Assembly: GCF_003284895.1 (NCBI RefSeq)
Contig: NZ_QMDV01000001.1
Coordinates: 151,080-215,079, forward strand
DNA length: 64,000 bases
Direction: 5' to 3'
DNA from: Pontibacter arcticus
GTDB lineage: Bacteria > Bacteroidota > Bacteroidia > Cytophagales > Hymenobacteraceae
The notes under the pieces are model-generated. The model saw only the letters and a program-made list of their open reading frames with translations. It had not been told where the DNA came from and searched no databases. Position 1 is the first letter of the stretch; each line of letters starts with the position of its first letter. This document shows, in pieces, positions 4,279 to 57,333 of this stretch. A program made the translations under genes and the position numbers.

Positions 4279-4929
4279 ATGCCCAACCTGCGTTACAACA
4301 GCTTTCGCTGCAAGTACAGCCTTTCGGTTCGTTTACTTGTGTTGCTGTTGCTTTTTAATTACATCGCCTCTGCCTGCACCCCTGATACGGCAGACGAGCA
4401 GCAAACTGATGCGCCGCAGGAAATCCATACCGCCATTGCCGCTGATACCACCGCCACCCGCAACCCAAAACCCGAGCCCAGTGTAATAGACCTGCTCGGA
4501 AACCCGTTCGTGGCCAACCGTACCAAAAGCAACAGCCTGAGCTCGTATTACGACCGCATTAATGCCGACTTTACCGTAGAGGCCGACCCGATCGAGAACC
4601 GCCATAAAAGCAACATCACCGATACCATTTACACGATCCGGTTCGGTAATTCTGTGATGGAATTTTACGCGCCGACCCAATCCGGTGCGTTGCTGCTGCA
4701 GGTAGCTGATATTAAAAGCAATGCCATTGTGCTGCGCGATAACCTGCGTGTGGGCATGCCCCAAACCGAGCTGATCGCTAAACTTAAAACCCAGGCTCAG
4801 AACCTGAAAGTGGTGCAAACGCCAAACGAGATCATCGCCTCGACCAAGGAGGGCGCTCCTATCTCACTGCACTTCTACCTCAACAACGGCAAAGTTGACC
4901 GCATCCTGTACGAAGGCTATGTGGATTAA
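4279..4929 (+). CDS. Putative lipoprotein of unknown function
   Basis: The 216-residue product has a basic N-terminus, a leucine-rich hydrophobic core and a cysteine in the context IASAC near residue 33, compatible with a Bacteroidota lipoprotein signal. After it comes a low-complexity Thr/Asp/Ala-rich linker and then a small globular domain that ends with YLNNGKVDRILYEGYVD. I do not recognise the domain; the segment with repeated strands and a DNLRVGMPQTEL motif recalls small SmpA/BamE-like folds, which is only an impression. It is transcribed divergently from the ATP-grasp gene and lies upstream of dtd, 138 bases away. Confidence 0.7.
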   Translation: MPNLRYNSFRCKYSLSVRLLVLLLLFNYIASACTPDTADEQQTDAPQEIHTAIAADTTATRNPKPEPSVIDLLGNPFVANRTKSNSLSSYYDRINADFTVEADPIENRHKSNITDTIYTIRFGNSVMEFYAPTQSGALLLQVADIKSNAIVLRDNLRVGMPQTELIAKLKTQAQNLKVVQTPNEIIASTKEGAPISLHFYLNNGKVDRILYEGYVD

Positions 4930-5067
4930 TGTTTTAGTGGTTTAATGTGTTAATTTGCTAACATAAAATTCAGTATTGTGACTAAGTTCTCATTTTCTGA
5001 ATTTTACTGATCTTAACTGAAAACTATTAATACATTATCACATTAATCCATCACCACATTAACAAAT

Positions 5068-6652: not shown

Positions 6653-6666
6653 TCTTTTTAGACGTT

Positions 6667-6725
6667 AGATATTAGATGTTAGACATTAGACATAAACTCC
6701 AAAGGAAGTCTAACGTCTAATATCT
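6667..6725. repeat. Imperfect inverted repeat between gcvT and comB
   Basis: Arms at 6667-6684 and 6708-6725 match over 17 of 18 bases with a 23-base loop. The left side is also internally repetitive, with units like TTAGATATTAGATGTTAGAC. It lies 22 bases past the gcvT stop codon and could end gcvT transcription, but it has no clean T-run. Its short tandem character is like that of the AATTCGT arrays elsewhere in the window. Confidence 0.6.
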
Positions 6726-39923: not shown

Positions 39924-39957
39924 AATTCGTAATTCGTAATTCGTAATTCGTAATTCT
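39924..39957 (+). repeat. Tandem heptad array (AATTCGT)n
   Basis: Four and a half copies of AATTCGT stand in a row immediately next to the SDR stop codon at 39961. The same unit, in variants AACTCGT and ATTCTTA, occurs at 41082-41112 and around the four-helix-bundle gene. Confidence 0.85.
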
Positions 39958-40689: not shown

Positions 40690-40845
40690 AGTCTTATTAA
40701 GTTAGAAAGTTAGAAGGTCGAAAGTTAGAAAAGTATACATTCAGGAGTACGCAGGAAGGCTGGATCAGGGTTAAAAAGGGTTTGTGTTTTGATATGGAGT
40801 AAATGATTTTAGAAACTGCTGCAAGTATAAAAACTCACCAGTTAA

Positions 40846-40994
40846 ACCCACTCCTAACCCCTCCCAGGAGGGGAATTTATACTTGTACTATCATTTACCT
40901 CATCTTAAGTAGATGGAGTAAAAGAGAAAGCCAAAAAAACACTAATTGTTGAAATGATTGCTGGTTCCCCTCCTCGGAGGGGTTAGGGGTGGGT
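40846..40994. mobile_element. MITE-like element with G/C-rich inverted ends, 149 bp
   Basis: The left end ACCCACTCCTAACCCCTCCC and right end GGAGGGGTTAGGGGTGGGT are near-perfect inverted repeats, each adjoining a small CCTCC/GGAGG hairpin. The inner about 90 bases are AT-rich and code for nothing. It is half the length of the related copy at 24875. Confidence 0.7.
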
Positions 40995-41034
40995 TACTGC
41001 AACACACGATCAACCCTTAAAACAAAGCCAAAAC

Positions 41035-41081: not shown

Positions 41082-41112
41082 ATTCGTAACTCGTAATTCT
41101 TAATTCGTAATT
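41082..41112 (+). repeat. Degenerate heptad array at the hslU 3' end
   Basis: ATTCGTA, ACTCGTA, ATTCTTA and ATTCGTA follow each other and run into the hslU stop at 41111. Same family as the arrays at 39924 and 54732. Confidence 0.75.
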
Positions 41113-52198: not shown

Positions 52199-53512
52199 TT
52201 AGAAGAACGTCTGGAATACATCGTTAAAGATAGCAAATCCCATTAAGCACAACAAAAGAACCATACCCACTTTTTGGGCATTCTCTAAAAAAGTATCGGA
52301 GGGCTTGCGTCCGCTGATCATCTCATACGTCAGGAACATCACGTGCCCGCCATCCAGCGCCGGGATCGGCAAAAAGTTCATAAAAGCCAGTACCATAGAC
52401 AGCATACCGGTAAGCGACCAGAACTTGTACCAGTTAAACTCGCCACCGTAAATCTGTGCGATTTTGATAGGTCCGCCAATTGATTTGGTAGGGTCGGCCT
52501 CACCTCTGAAGATTTTTCCAAAACCTTTGATGTTTGCCGTAATCACACCAAACGCCTGCTCGGTACCCATCGGAATAGACTCCAGGAAAGTATAATCTTC
52601 GGTTGCAAAGTTAAGCAATGGCTTCGACTGGAAACCCAGCGTGCCATCTTCGCCAACCTGCGAACGCAGTTTGATTGGCGTACCTTCGCGCTCTACCTGC
52701 AACGTAATGGTTTTGCCGGCATTCTCTTTCAGAAGTTTCTGGAAAACATCAAAGAATTTAGCATCCTGTCCGTTTACAGTTAAAACAAAATCGCCTGCTT
52801 TTAAGCCAGCTTTTGCTGCATTGCTCCCTGCCATTACTTGGCCTATCTGGAAGGTCTGGCGCGGCTGCACAAACAGCATGCGGTCTTCTTTATCGGCCAG
52901 GCGGTCCATCAGGTCAACGGGCACTTTTACATCTACTGTTTTGCCCTCGCGTTCCACCGTATAATAAGCATTGCGGCCTAGTAAAGCATCCATCGAGTAT
53001 ACATCATCGAATTTCTCGAGTTTCTGACCATTTACCGCAATGATCTTGTCGCCGGTCTGGAAGCCGATTTCCTCACCAATTTCGTTTGCTACTACGCCAT
53101 ACTTTGCTTCGGATGCCGGTAAGTAACTTTCGCCATAATAAAAGGCCAGGGCTGCGTAAATCAGTATACCTGTAATCACGTTTACAATAATACCACCCAT
53201 CATCACGATCAGGCGCTGCCAGGCTGGTTTAGAGCGGAACTCGTATGGCTTTGGCTCTTCTTTCATCGCTTCGGTATCCATGGATTCATCTACCATACCG
53301 GATATCTTTACAAAACCACCCAACGGAATCAGGCCCAGCATATATTCTGTTTCACCAAATTTCTTGCTTATCAGGGTTGGCGGAAAACCAATTGCATACT
53401 TCTCTACACGCATCCCAAACCACTTGGCAGTAAGCATGTGGCCGAGTTCGTGTAATCCAACTAAAATTGTAAGGCCCAGTATCAGCTGGCCTGCCATGAT
53501 CAAAATATCCAT
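52199..53512 (-). CDS. rseP: RIP metalloprotease RseP
   Basis: A site-2 protease, a zinc peptidase in the inner membrane that cuts anti-sigma factors and signal-peptide remnants. HELGH at residues 21-25 gives the zinc-binding histidines, and LPIPALDGGHV near residue 380 supplies the aspartate. Two PDZ domains lie between (about 120-300, with EIGFQTGDKIIAVNGQ and KAGLKAGDFVLTVNGQ). Helices at the N-terminus, near 95-115 and the C-terminus complete the fold. It follows dxr after 49 bases, the order dxr-rseP seen in many bacteria. Confidence 0.97.
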   Translation of the reverse strand: MDILIMAGQLILGLTILVGLHELGHMLTAKWFGMRVEKYAIGFPPTLISKKFGETEYMLGLIPLGGFVKISGMVDESMDTEAMKEEPKPYEFRSKPAWQRLIVMMGGIIVNVITGILIYAALAFYYGESYLPASEAKYGVVANEIGEEIGFQTGDKIIAVNGQKLEKFDDVYSMDALLGRNAYYTVEREGKTVDVKVPVDLMDRLADKEDRMLFVQPRQTFQIGQVMAGSNAAKAGLKAGDFVLTVNGQDAKFFDVFQKLLKENAGKTITLQVEREGTPIKLRSQVGEDGTLGFQSKPLLNFATEDYTFLESIPMGTEQAFGVITANIKGFGKIFRGEADPTKSIGGPIKIAQIYGGEFNWYKFWSLTGMLSMVLAFMNFLPIPALDGGHVMFLTYEMISGRKPSDTFLENAQKVGMVLLLCLMGFAIFNDVFQTFF

Positions 53513-53561
53513 CTAACTAAACTAAATTTAAAATCTGTTACAGTTGCCGAAGCCGCTGTAT

Positions 53562-54728
53562 TTATACTTTGGATTGTATTTTATGTATTAATTCTGAGGC
53601 CTTTGCACGGGTTTCGCTGTCTGTAAGCACATAATCGTCGTACGAAGGATTGGCAATATACGTAACTTTTGCCATACAACTTTCGATGATCTCGGGCATC
53701 TGCAGGAAACCTACTTCGTCGCGCAGGAAAGCACTTACTGCTATTTCGTTGGCCGCATTTAAAATGCAGGGCATATTGCCGCCTTTGGCCATCGCATCAA
53801 AAGCCAGCTGCAAATTCCGGAACGTCTTCAGATCAGGTTGCTCGAAAGTCAGTTGCGGATAATCCATAAAATTAAATCGCGGGAAGTCGGACTTAAGCCT
53901 GTTCGGGTAGCCTAAGGCGTACTGTATCGGCAATTTCATATCGGGAAGCCCAAGCTGCGCTTTTAAAGAGCCATCTTCGAACTGCACCAGCGAATGGATG
54001 ATAGATTGCGGGTGCACGACAACTTCAATCTGCTCGTTGGTTAATCCGAAAAGCCATTTTGCTTCAATCACTTCCAGGCCTTTGTTCATTAAAGAAGCAG
54101 AGTCGATTGTGATTTTAGCGCCCATGTCCCAGTTGGGGTGTTTAAGCGCCTGTGCTTTGGTAACAAGTATCAGTTCGTCTACAGTTCTTCCTCTGAACGG
54201 CCCACCGGAAGCGGTTAGTATAATTTTCTCGATCGGGTTATGGAACTCCCCAACCAGACACTGGAAAATAGCGCTGTGCTCCGAATCTACGGGGTAGATG
54301 TTGACGCCATACTCTTTTGCAAGCTCTGTGATAAGCTGACCGGCTACGACCAACGTTTCCTTGTTAGCCAGCGCGATCTGCTTTCCTGCTTTAATAGCCC
54401 GGATGGTGGGCTGCAAACCGGCATACCCCATCATGGCGGTCAGTACCATATCCACGGTTCCCATCTCCACTACAGCGCAAAGGGCGTTGGCTCCGGCGTA
54501 TATTTTAATATCCTCCTGCTGAAGCGCCTCGCGCACCTGCTCATAATAAGCTTCGTTTGCAATAACAACAGCATTTGGCTTAAATTTCAGGGCCTGCGTA
54601 ATCAACAGTTCAGCATTGTTATTGGCCGTGATCACTTCCAGCTCAAAACTTTCCGGGTTGGCTTCTATTACATCCAGGGCCTGCGTACCGATGGAACCAG
54701 TGGAACCAAGTATGGCGATTCTTTTCAT
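53562..54728 (-). CDS. dxr: 1-deoxy-D-xylulose 5-phosphate reductoisomerase
   Basis: Dxr makes 2-C-methyl-D-erythritol 4-phosphate with NADPH, the first committed MEP-pathway step. The N-terminal nucleotide site is GSTGSIG at 8-14. The active-site segments are VDSEHSAIFQCL, TASGGPFRGR and DSASLMNKGLEVIEAKWLF. The 388-residue length is typical. This shows that isoprenoids are made by the MEP route here. It is upstream of rseP in the same unit; its own upstream flank is the 7-bp repeat array of the four-helix-bundle cassette, which ends four bases before its start codon. Confidence 0.98.
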   Translation of the reverse strand: MKRIAILGSTGSIGTQALDVIEANPESFELEVITANNNAELLITQALKFKPNAVVIANEAYYEQVREALQQEDIKIYAGANALCAVVEMGTVDMVLTAMMGYAGLQPTIRAIKAGKQIALANKETLVVAGQLITELAKEYGVNIYPVDSEHSAIFQCLVGEFHNPIEKIILTASGGPFRGRTVDELILVTKAQALKHPNWDMGAKITIDSASLMNKGLEVIEAKWLFGLTNEQIEVVVHPQSIIHSLVQFEDGSLKAQLGLPDMKLPIQYALGYPNRLKSDFPRFNFMDYPQLTFEQPDLKTFRNLQLAFDAMAKGGNMPCILNAANEIAVSAFLRDEVGFLQMPEIIESCMAKVTYIANPSYDDYVLTDSETRAKASELIHKIQSKV

Positions 54729-54731
54729 ATT

Positions 54732-55171
54732 GAGTTACGAGTTACGAGTATCGAATTCCGAGTTATTTTTACTCATTCCTTTACTCGTAAGTATTATGCT
54801 GTTCAAAATTTTTATTACCTCCTGGCAATCGGCGTGTATACTTTCGAAATGCTTTTTTTCCAGATACCCTGTATCATGCAATAATCTGAGCCAATATGAG
54901 GTTTCTCTAGCCTCTTTCCTGGCTATACTTAATTTATGTATAAAATCTGCCGTTGATTCGCCACCTATTGCTTCTTCAACATTTGCTCCAATGGAAGTAC
55001 CACTCCTTAAAATCTGCTTTGACAAAACAAATTCTTTTTTCTCATTAGAAAGGTGCTGATACAGTTTAACTGCCCGAATCGCAAAAGCGTATGATTTTTC
55101 TGCTATTATGCTCTTGCTCATTTCCCTATCTATATTAACTCGTAACTCGAAACTAGGAACTCGTAATTGCC
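54732..55171. mobile_element. Four-helix-bundle cassette with inverted heptad arrays
   Basis: The left flank reads GAGTTAC, GAGTTAC, GAGTATC, GAATTCC (54732-54759); the right flank reads AACTCGT, AACTCGA, AACTAGG, AACTCGT (55137-55164), its inverse. Between them lies one small gene. The left array is four bases from the dxr start and the right array covers the GH3 stop codon, so the cassette fills the gap exactly. Confidence 0.6.
54735..55121 (-). CDS. Four-helix-bundle (S23/IVP-like) protein
   Basis: The 128-residue protein belongs to the family first seen inside 23S rRNA intervening sequences. I chose the ATG at 55121 (MSKSIIAEKSYAF), since the upstream extension is encoded by the repeat array. 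The signature RSGTSIGANVEEAIGG and the later ARKEARETSYWLRLL are diagnostic. It would fold into an antiparallel four-helix bundle that forms pentamers in known structures; its role is unknown. Its last ten residues (NNSEFDTRNS) are read from the left array, which suggests that the boundaries are not fixed by selection on the protein. Confidence 0.88.
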   Translation of the reverse strand: MSKSIIAEKSYAFAIRAVKLYQHLSNEKKEFVLSKQILRSGTSIGANVEEAIGGESTADFIHKLSIARKEARETSYWLRLLHDTGYLEKKHFESIHADCQEVIKILNSIILTSKGMSKNNSEFDTRNS

Positions 55172-56652
55172 AACAGGCCATCGGCCAGTTGGCGGTCGTT
55201 GCTCAGGCGCGGTACTTTGTTTTGTCCGCCTAGTTTGCCCTGCGATTTCATGTAGCTCCGGAACGTACCCATAGGCAACACCGATATCTTCAGGTTCTGC
55301 AACACATTGCCGGTTATCAGGTCGTTGTAATAGGTATTGATCTGCTGCATCTGCATGTTCAGATCTTTTTCGAAATCACCTAAGTCGTGGGGTGGCCGCG
55401 AGAACTCTACCAGCCACTCGTGGTACGACTGGCCCTGGTCCTGGCTTACATAAGGTGCTACTGTAAACTCGATCAGTTCGGCAGACTGGTATTTGGCCAT
55501 GGTTCTATCCATGGCTTGCTCTACTTCCTCCCCTATCACATGTTCGCCAAACGCTGAAATAAAATGCTTGATGCGCCCACTTACTAAAATTTTGTAAGGT
55601 TTGATAGACGTAAACCTGATCGTATCGCCGATAGAGTAAGCCCACAAACCTGCATTGCTGCTGATGATGAGCGCGTAATTTACGCCAATCTGTACTTCGC
55701 CAATTGTTAAGCGCGTCGGGTTTTCGTTAAAGTATTCGTCTACAGGTATAAATTCATAAAAAATACCGGTATCGAGTAAAAGGAGAAGACTTTTGTCCTG
55801 TTGTTCGTTCTGGTAAGCAAAGAAACCCTCAGAGGCCGGAAAAGTTTCGATGCTGGGTATACAACGCCCCATCGACTCGCGGAGACGCTTGCGGTACGGC
55901 TCAAAATTAACGCCTCCATACACAAACAGGGAGTAGTTCGGGAAAATATCCTTTATCGGTTTGCCCGTCTGCCGGATCAGTTTATCAAAATACATCTGCA
56001 CCCACGGCGGTATGCCCGAAATGAGTGTCATGTTTTCGTCAATGGTTTCTTCGATGATCTGATCGAGCTTTACTTCCCAGTCTTCGATGCAGTTGGTTTC
56101 GTAGCTTGGCATCTGGTTGGTGCGCAGGTAACCCGGCACGTGGTGGTTCACGATTCCGGATAAACGCCCGGTTGGTATGCCACCCACTTCCTCCAGCTCC
56201 GGGCTCCCGGACAGGAAAATCAGTTTCCCATCCAGGAAACCAGCATTTCCCGTTTCGTGGATGTAGGCCAGAAGCGCATTTTTAGCGCCGTTTATATGGT
56301 TTGGGATAGAATCTTTTGTAATGGGAATATACTTGGCTCCTGAAGTTGTGCCAGACGTTTTTGCCAGGTAAATAGGCTTACCCGGCCATAAAACGTCTTT
56401 TACACCTTGCTGCACCAACTCAAAATAAGAGGCAAGCCCTTCGTAATCGCGTACGGGTACGGCTTTTACAAAATCAGCGTGTGTTTTTATTTTGTCGAAA
56501 TGATGTTCGCGGCCAAATTTTGTACCTGCCGCTTTCCGTATAATTTTATCGAAGATTGCTTTTTGTGCTTCCACCGGATGCTGGATCCAGTGCTGTTGTT
56601 TTTTATGCACATATGCGGCGAGTGGTTTGCTCAACCATGCTTTTACACCCAT
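55153..56652 (-). CDS. GH3-family adenylate-forming protein
   Basis: The 499-residue product belongs to the GH3 acyl-adenylate family, known in plants for conjugating amino acids to hormones. The AMP-binding loop KTSGTTSGAKYIPIT is near residue 94, the middle motif LFVYGGVNFEPY near 243, and the late YSIGDTIRFTS typical of the fold near 335. The bacterial substrate is not known; amino-acid conjugation of a carboxylic acid is the family guess. Its stop codon at 55153 lies inside the right heptad array. Confidence 0.9.
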   Translation of the reverse strand: MGVKAWLSKPLAAYVHKKQQHWIQHPVEAQKAIFDKIIRKAAGTKFGREHHFDKIKTHADFVKAVPVRDYEGLASYFELVQQGVKDVLWPGKPIYLAKTSGTTSGAKYIPITKDSIPNHINGAKNALLAYIHETGNAGFLDGKLIFLSGSPELEEVGGIPTGRLSGIVNHHVPGYLRTNQMPSYETNCIEDWEVKLDQIIEETIDENMTLISGIPPWVQMYFDKLIRQTGKPIKDIFPNYSLFVYGGVNFEPYRKRLRESMGRCIPSIETFPASEGFFAYQNEQQDKSLLLLLDTGIFYEFIPVDEYFNENPTRLTIGEVQIGVNYALIISSNAGLWAYSIGDTIRFTSIKPYKILVSGRIKHFISAFGEHVIGEEVEQAMDRTMAKYQSAELIEFTVAPYVSQDQGQSYHEWLVEFSRPPHDLGDFEKDLNMQMQQINTYYNDLITGNVLQNLKISVLPMGTFRSYMKSQGKLGGQNKVPRLSNDRQLADGLLAITSS

Positions 56653-56898
56653 ACATTCTGTTTTGATGGCAAGGTAAATATAGCGAGATAAACCTGTTTT
56701 GCTATAATAGAGTAAAACTAAAATCTGGGCTGCTGCTGTATTTTATACTTCAGTAGTATCGGATTTCTCAATTTTTTCTGGAAAGTTACATTCATTTCAA
56801 GACAATAAAGTATAAATCCGGTTTAGTTATAGATAACGCCGCTTACTGGTTTTATACTTTGCATTTTATACTTTATAAATCAATTAACTACATAAAAC

Positions 56899-57333
56899 AT
56901 GAAACAACACACCGCACAGGCCCGATGGGAAAAAGGATTAAAAGACGGAAAAGGCAACTTAAGCACTGGCAACGGCCAGATAAAAGCCAGTTATAGTTTC
57001 GATACGCGTTTTGGCGAAGCAAAAGATGGCACCACACCCGAAGAACTGATCGGGGCAGCCCATGCCGGTTGCTTTTCGATGTTTCTGAGCGCTTTAGTTG
57101 GCAAACAGAACATTACACCGGCCTATATAGAAACAACTGCAAAAGTATACTTAGGCGAAAAAGATGGCGGCCCGCTTATTCAAAAAATAGAGCTTACCAC
57201 CGAAGCAAGTATAGATGGCCTGGAGGATGCAGATTTTCAGAAACTTGTGCAGGAGGCAAAAGCTAATTGCCCTGTTTCGAAAGCGCTGGCTGCCGTACCT
57301 GAAGTTATGGTACAGGCTTCACTTAAAAAATAA
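56899..57333 (+). CDS. OsmC-family hydroperoxidase
   Basis: OsmC proteins reduce organic hydroperoxides with two active-site cysteines. Here they are C58 (HAGCFSM) and C124 (ANCPVSKAL), both in their conserved places. The 144-residue length and the N-terminal QARWEKGLKDGKG match the OsmC group rather than Ohr. The gene stands alone, with an AAGTATA-rich 246-base upstream region. Confidence 0.94.
   Translation: MKQHTAQARWEKGLKDGKGNLSTGNGQIKASYSFDTRFGEAKDGTTPEELIGAAHAGCFSMFLSALVGKQNITPAYIETTAKVYLGEKDGGPLIQKIELTTEASIDGLEDADFQKLVQEAKANCPVSKALAAVPEVMVQASLKK

Follow-up and report, generated by a model that had tools for sequence, protein, structure and literature searches.

The intervening sequence (IVS) of Coxiella 23S rRNA is 428 nt long, is bounded by a terminal inverted repeat and carries an S23 open reading frame (ORF) in the sense orientation, with tandem GACAGAT heptamers upstream of this frame (PMC4990558). 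The S23 protein from Xanthomonas is described as a toroidal homopentamer (PMC4990558), and the PF05635 family has been described as resembling Avd, with reference to structures 4DWL and 2GSC (PMC10053308). Short repeats of the same length are found in a second context: TAACTGA heptamers occur in Beggiatoaceae, Cyanobacteria and Bacteroidetes as short intergenic arrays, with 2-6 copies in the main genome (PMC4679880). MacGregor 2015 considered a mobile binding protein for these repeats, which are found in distant phyla (PMC4679880); the terms S23, 23S and four helix do not occur in the main text of that paper. In the openly licensed literature that we searched, no description was found of S23 genes outside rRNA that are flanked by such repeat arms.

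We analyzed a 64,000-nt stretch of the Pontibacter arcticus genome (contig NZ_QMDV01000001.1, positions 151,080 to 215,079; hereafter the window), which contains an S23/IVP gene located between dxr and a GH3-family gene rather than at helix 9, 25 or 45 of 23S rRNA. We propose that this gene and its two arms constitute an IVS-type cassette outside rRNA, and that a pentameric ring of the encoded protein would bind one arm with one repeat unit per subunit. We give this reading a probability of slightly over one half. The cassette is called IVS-type, and not an IVS, because it has the S23 ORF, terminal inverted repeat and heptamers of the Coxiella IVS without the rRNA location.

Inverted arms around S23/IVP genes

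The window gene (54735..55121, minus strand) encodes a four-helix-bundle protein of approximately 128 residues. In profile searches, the ORF matched PF05635 with 108.1 bits, which is above the curated threshold (cut-off 33.8), and TIGR02436 with 119 bits (cut-off 24), and the protein matched PDB entry 2RLD with an E value of 1.2e-35. Comparison with homologues indicates 55121 as the likely start codon. Both neighboring genes are also on the minus strand and co-directional with the S23 gene: dxr, which encodes DXP reductoisomerase, lies downstream (53562..54728), and the GH3-family gene lies upstream (55153..56652). A repeat search identified one arm on either side. The upstream (5') arm, at 55137..55168 on the minus strand, has five cores and reads AATTacg AGTTcct AGTTtcg AGTTacg AGTT in the sense direction. 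The downstream (3') arm, at 54732-54765, is inverted and also has five cores, reading AGTTacg AGTTacg AGTAtcg AATTccg AGTT on the plus strand. Relative to each other, the arrays are in opposite orientation, that at 54732-54765 in GAGTTAC phase and the other, at 55136-55166 in the repeat search, in TAACTCG phase; the arms are 31 nt each, 84% complementary and separated by 370 nt. All cores are of the AATT/AGTT type with 3-base spacers. Our script counted six on the 5' side and five on the other, compared with five and five by eye, the sixth being a one-mismatch TGTT at the outer end of the 5' arm.

The repeat search and the PF05635 and TIGR02436 matches confirm a sequence-only reading of this DNA, which had described a gene enclosed by inverted arrays of a 7-bp unit in the gap between dxr and GH3. 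That reading had also placed the arrays next to dxr and over the GH3 stop codon, and this is where they lie: the dxr ORF starts at 54728 on the minus strand, with three bases between it and the first array, and the GH3 stop codon (55153-55155) falls within the upstream array. The final GH3 residues, AITSS, are array-encoded. At the other end, the downstream array supplies the last codons and the stop codon of the S23 gene, and the C-terminal tail of the S23 ORF, SEFDTRNS, is encoded by array sequence. The window arms are not a product of chance, with an arm score of 37 compared to 23 for the 99th percentile of 1360 same-locus controls. Nor are they one conserved repeat: four S23 genes were found in this genome, all four with inverted arms, and the other three carry units that differ from the window unit. 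We found no Rfam match in positions 53000-57000 of the window at E 1, and neither the S23 protein nor one GxxExxY protein had a match in PADLOC.

The arrangement is general in the genus. Among the matches listed, S23 genes were present in 47 of 50 Pontibacter genomes, with 0 to 9 genes in each, which makes S23/IVP a common gene family. From part of these matches we took a genus sample of 136 genes in 133 loci, called arms at a score of at least 25 and used other positions within the same loci as controls. Inverted arms flank 120 of the 136 genes compared to 10 of 1360 controls, and arms in direct orientation were found at 14 genes and 18 controls. Initially, the null had consisted of arm pairs from different loci; these scored as high as the elements or higher, which we put down to orthologous flanks in mixed orientation, and same-locus controls replaced them.

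Outside the genus, inverted arms were present at 22 of 30 loci from the class (taken by score) and at 8 of 9 plasmid loci (hand-chosen from 27 records), compared to 2 of 390 controls for the two sets. The armed plasmid loci are those of five cyanobacteria, Treponema, Chlorohelix and Bernardetia, and the locus without arms is from Monoglobus. In a set of named loci from many phyla, 67 of 78 were armed, compared to 6 of 780 controls; the 78 are the usable part of 80 loci, two being at contig ends, and 16 of the 80 are from Pontibacter and overlap the genus sample. Armed members of this set include Pseudanabaena, Hydrogenedentes, Chloroflexi, Lentisphaerae, Planctomyces, Desulfobulbaceae and Cloacimonadota, and one Gemmatimonadota and one Omnitrophota locus, the only locus of each, scored below threshold. 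Clear arms are thus lacking at 16/136 genus genes, 8/30 class loci, 1/9 plasmid loci and 11/78 named loci. Arrays are therefore far commoner around such genes than around other positions, as expected from the earlier reading, and this holds beyond the genus.

Repeat unit, protein and candidate reader

Copy numbers were determined for 119 of the 136 genus genes (arm score at least 25, shorter flank). Four-base cores in the genus sample repeat at steps of 7 (727) or 8 (210) bases. Five copies were counted in 57 left and 63 right arms of the 119, four in 35 left and 23 right, and six in 15 left and 20 right; shuffled genus arms have a mode of two. The named set gave five copies in 35 left and 40 right arms of 67, with steps of 7 (546) or 8 (22) bases. 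The spread is wider in the class and plasmid set, which has five copies in 10 left and 12 right arms of 30 and ranges up to 11; some cyanobacterial and Treponema arms contain 8-11 copies. Five copies per arm is the commonest number, and four and six are common too. Chance alone can lengthen or shorten a chain by one copy, and the actual spread is therefore probably smaller. The inward-reading strand of the arms is poor in C, with G exceeding C in 181 elements and C exceeding G in 30; one element (L246) has its unit in the opposite sense.

The closest solved relatives of the window protein, 2RLD and 2GSC, have five chains each (PDB). The match between five units and five subunits hints that each subunit contacts one unit. 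The trp RNA-binding protein TRAP, which reads repeated triplets, provides an analogy for a ring that reads an arm.

At the genus loci both arms share a unit, and the unit varies among lineages. Clustering by flanking DNA grouped the 136 sampled genes into 17 sites, most of them common to several species. One site, which we name acyl-CoA dehydrogenase/thiolase from a reading of the sequence, is occupied in 24 genomes. Three protein groups at this site have TAGAnnn, AAGAnnn and GACAnnn cores in both arms, and their support in the protein tree is 90/92, 100/95 and 100/100, respectively. A fourth group, with CACGnnn cores in both arms, has no resolved place in the tree, which covers 126 of the 136 genes, short copies being omitted. 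The left arm of an element was matched better by its own right arm than by the right arms of other species in 439 of 506 comparisons at this site. The same preference for the own partner was found at sites 0 (284/342), 2 (80/110), 3 (97/132), 4 (86/110), 6 (37/42) and 12 (5/6). It was weak or absent at sites 5, 7, 8, 9 and 10 (31/56, 4/6, 3/6, 6/20 and 3/12), whose members are few or close kin; common descent would produce this pattern.

Unit and protein also vary together across sites. We collected 191 elements with an arm score of at least 28, of which 177 remained after identical proteins were removed. Protein similarity correlated with arm similarity over 14,294 pairs without a shared neighbor gene (rho 0.41), compared to a maximum of 0.09 in 300 permutations. 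The AATTACG-type unit accompanies window-like proteins in Pseudanabaena, Chloroflexi, Hydrogenedentes, Pontiellaceae and Desulfobulbaceae. This pattern points to a trans-acting reader that changes with the protein, and the simplest candidate is the S23 protein itself.

We then compared the spacers of the two arms in 106 genus elements with at least four units per arm. Spacer identity between arms was 0.605 in register and 0.588 in other registers, and no in-register agreement beyond chance was found (48 up and 55 down among the 106 elements, p 0.64). Spacers that are out of register suggest two arrays of putative binding sites rather than a conserved stem; they also speak against the copying of one arm from its partner and favor a trans-acting reader common to both. 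Arm-to-arm base pairing as a selected feature is unsupported by this test. Together, the preferred five copies, the concerted change of units and the failed register test strengthen the case that S23 proteins may recognize the arrays that surround their genes.

These data bear on the alternative that survives best, namely that the cassette is an RNA-stem element. Its arms would matter only through their pairing in the transcript and cleavage there by RNase III, as happens in the 23S IVS, and the repeats would be by-products of slippage. RNase III cleaves the terminal stem of the Coxiella IVS (PMC4990558), and the RNA of the window element is predicted to pair end to end, folding better than all 100 shuffles (z -3.9). 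Moreover, 121 of the 136 genus S23 genes are flanked on both sides by genes of the same direction. Of 14 sites with co-directional neighbors, 13 have the S23 gene in sense and one in antisense; three further sites have divergent or convergent neighbors. Ordinary small genes at the same loci are equally co-directional, however (90 sense to 12 antisense, compared to 66 to 7 for S23 genes in the wider set), and we rejected the argument that a sense position proves an RNA element. The cassette acts like an operon gene, and its orientation alone does not argue for an RNA element. In-register spacer complementarity, which would be expected of a selected stem, is no better than chance, and an RNA stem predicts neither the preferred five copies nor a unit that tracks the protein at unrelated sites. 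We therefore regard this explanation as unlikely, although the arms could still pair in RNA and may have a role there.

Slightly less probable again is that the arrays are sites of another trans-acting protein, a transposase or regulator, with the S23 gene as cargo. MacGregor 2015 proposes other binding proteins for the TAACTGA heptamers (PMC4679880), and arrays do occur alone. In 599 kb, we counted 22 solo arrays at step 7 and 8 at step 8 away from S23 genes, compared to 0, 1, 0 and 0 arrays at steps 5, 6, 10 and 11; ten more at step 9 might be codon repeats. By eye, the solo arrays belong to the same unit families as the cassettes, and gene-less inverted pairs also occur. On the other hand, this explanation does not account for the covariation of the unit with the S23 protein, and the presence of several units within one genome would require equally many readers.

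Within the window, two solo arrays on the minus strand belong by eye to the window unit family: one without an S23 gene at 39924..39956, the reverse complement of which is of the GAATTACG type with five AATT cores, and one at 41082..41112 (reverse complement AATTACGAATTAAGAATTACGAGTTACGAAT). These two are in direct orientation to each other. Further solo arrays with steps of 7-8 bases lie at 6658-6693, 40699-40731 and 56851-56877, and several of the five solo arrays adjoin gene ends. Inverted arrays of period 8/16 (TTAATGTG-like) at 4921-4954 and 5026-5062 are separated by 71 nt without a gene, and this pair (4921-5062) resembles a cassette that has lost or lacks its gene, with units of the site 3 family. 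A 31-bp inverted repeat at 40845-40995 (AACCCACTCCTAACCCCTCCC..., 89 nt between the arms) is perhaps another dispersed element.

A neutral process, in which slippage and hairpin-mediated repair create and homogenize inverted repeats around an inserted gene, is disfavored and very improbable. Heptad arrays are slippage-prone, and those of Coxiella differ in copy number among strains (PMC4990558), but the spacers are not homogenized between arms and control positions of the same loci are seldom armed.

We favor a cassette read by its own protein. An S23/IVP gene and its two inverted arms would be inherited, and sometimes moved, together, and the cassette would probably be transcribed with its host operon. 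In each arm a short core recurs approximately five times, 3-4 free bases apart, and one five-membered ring of S23 protein would bind the arm with each subunit contacting one unit. Such binding could join the cassette ends for movement and/or control the cassette's own expression; putative binding sites that face each other across the gene would suit end synapsis or autoregulation.

Site occupancy and movement

The gap between dxr and GH3 was surveyed in 30 GH3 loci from the 50 genus genomes, with one genome per species. A cassette is present in 6 of the 30 loci (four by gap comparison, and L140 and L162 from the S23 search and site clusters). Two others retain an arm together with one end of an S23 gene, the truncation in L158 being inferred from spacing, and one has an arm remnant. 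The remaining loci have a tight empty junction (11/30) or other intergenic DNA (10/30), and in L141, L147, L149 and L152 this other DNA is rich in CTATAGTT-like repeats. The gene is thus found at the dxr/GH3 position in part of the genus only, and its position is not fixed in all relatives.

Other sites have also changed occupants. Two S23 clades that are unrelated to each other and differ in unit occur at site 0. Two S23 groups with different units are found at site 2 as well; we considered it as a second site of two unrelated clades and rejected this because the tree is compatible with one origin, which limits the two-clade claim to site 0. L131 is of the RND-site lineage (L004, L132 and L133) but lies at another site. 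At the RND site itself, a cassette is present in 6 of 30 orthologues; the others show a lone arm, a hairpin element of another kind or no arm at all. The RND protein halves of L313 and L314 are 100 and 99% identical to the query, yet the two loci do not agree in state or unit. Farther afield, six cassettes have gene DNA that is 80-92% identical, five of them being from Pseudanabaena and the sixth from an Oscillatoriales MAG; their surroundings are unrelated, except for a common upstream sequence in L244, L246 and L250.

The cusA-like RND gene consists of two ORFs in all 30 orthologues examined (L313-L342), and the break always falls at the same point. A group that is 57-58% identical has frames of approximately 433-443 residues, and most remoter paralogues have one ORF of approximately 1250-1500 residues. 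We considered whether the cassette had split the gene; insertion did not necessarily do so, because orthologues without a cassette are split too (30/30 split, 6/30 with S23). Another type of hairpin element, TGTCATTTCGA ... GTCGAGATGACA with its variants, lies beside the cassette or replaces it at this junction in L315, L318, L320-L322, L324, L325, L335 and L339.

In three loci from Pseudanabaena, a Chloroflexi MAG and Pontiellaceae (L242, L243 and L252), the cassette lies by eye within an hsdS-like gene, and the arm is translated in frame. Plasmid S23 genes were seen inside a restriction operon (L229, without clear arms) and in DUF1156/Swt1 operons (L228 and L232).

The sequence-only reading had suggested a small mobile cassette, and this idea stands in part. 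That arms and gene form a unit is supported by the correlation between protein and unit, the two clades at site 0, the lineage found at two sites, the empty and decayed sites and the Pseudanabaena copies. Movement is well supported and seems rare. Two findings speak against easy mobility: the sampled genus genes occupy only 17 positions, most of them common to several species, and there is no general target-site duplication, with 5 direct repeats of at least 7 bases observed among 215 elements compared to 5.9 expected. Among the 215, L245 alone is flanked by a direct repeat of 12 bp.

Comparison with known systems

Avd, from diversity-generating retroelements, is a structural relative of the S23 family, but the window protein scores 16.4 bits with the Avd model and falls below its cut-off of 80. 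The cassette also differs from DDE-type insertion sequences, as it lacks a general target-site duplication in the 215 elements. In the window, the S23 ORF fills the 370 nt between the arms, and family searches with the S23, dxr and GH3 proteins gave no DDE-type transposase.

A layout like that of the S23 cassettes surrounds the gene of an unrelated protein. Inverted arms flank nuclease-like GxxExxY (PDDEXK_3) genes of this genus at 22 of 30 loci (L164-L193) compared to 2 of 300 controls, although several of these loci are one site in different species and are in part non-independent. Seventeen of the 22 share GTCTGAATCAGGATTT-type arms with GGAT cores, and the other five have other arms. Twelve of the 17 have four cores per arm at a spacing of 9-8-9 or 9-10-9 that is equal in both arms. 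These arms fit the idea that the unit number belongs to the protein family.

Cyanobacterial STRR repeats are heptanucleotides. As a more tentative extension, which we hold with distinctly less confidence than the cassette reading, S23/IVP proteins may be ring-shaped nucleic-acid readers whose specificity (core and 7- or 8-base pitch) drifts with the protein, all ten units following. The cassettes would then form a widespread, transposase-less mobile family, dispersed arms could explain many of the heptanucleotide repeats of Bacteroidota and cyanobacteria, and S23-bearing 23S IVSs would be members that landed in rRNA. If five units do fit five subunits, unit and protein would together form a natural code for what a ring protein binds, and 177 non-identical protein-array pairs are available to read it.

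The CAGTTAn-type cores at sites 0 and 7 resemble by eye the complement of TAACTGA, but the TAACTGA heptamers are described as direct repeats that lie mostly upstream of start codons (PMC4679880). These heptamers are not known to have a reader (PMC4679880). A link to S23 would give both a testable function, in which the protein beside an array should bind that array.

The closest resemblance is to the 23S IVSs of Coxiella and Leptospira, with which the window cassette shares the protein family, a similar size (approximately 437 nt compared to 428), terminal inverted repeats and a sense ORF. The Coxiella IVS also has heptameric repeats in its terminal region (PMC4990558), as do the window arms. 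In contrast to these IVSs, the window cassette lies between protein genes and has lineage-specific units, with approximately five per arm. A link between S23 proteins and heptamer arrays would also place the S23-bearing 23S rRNA IVS within a much broader family.
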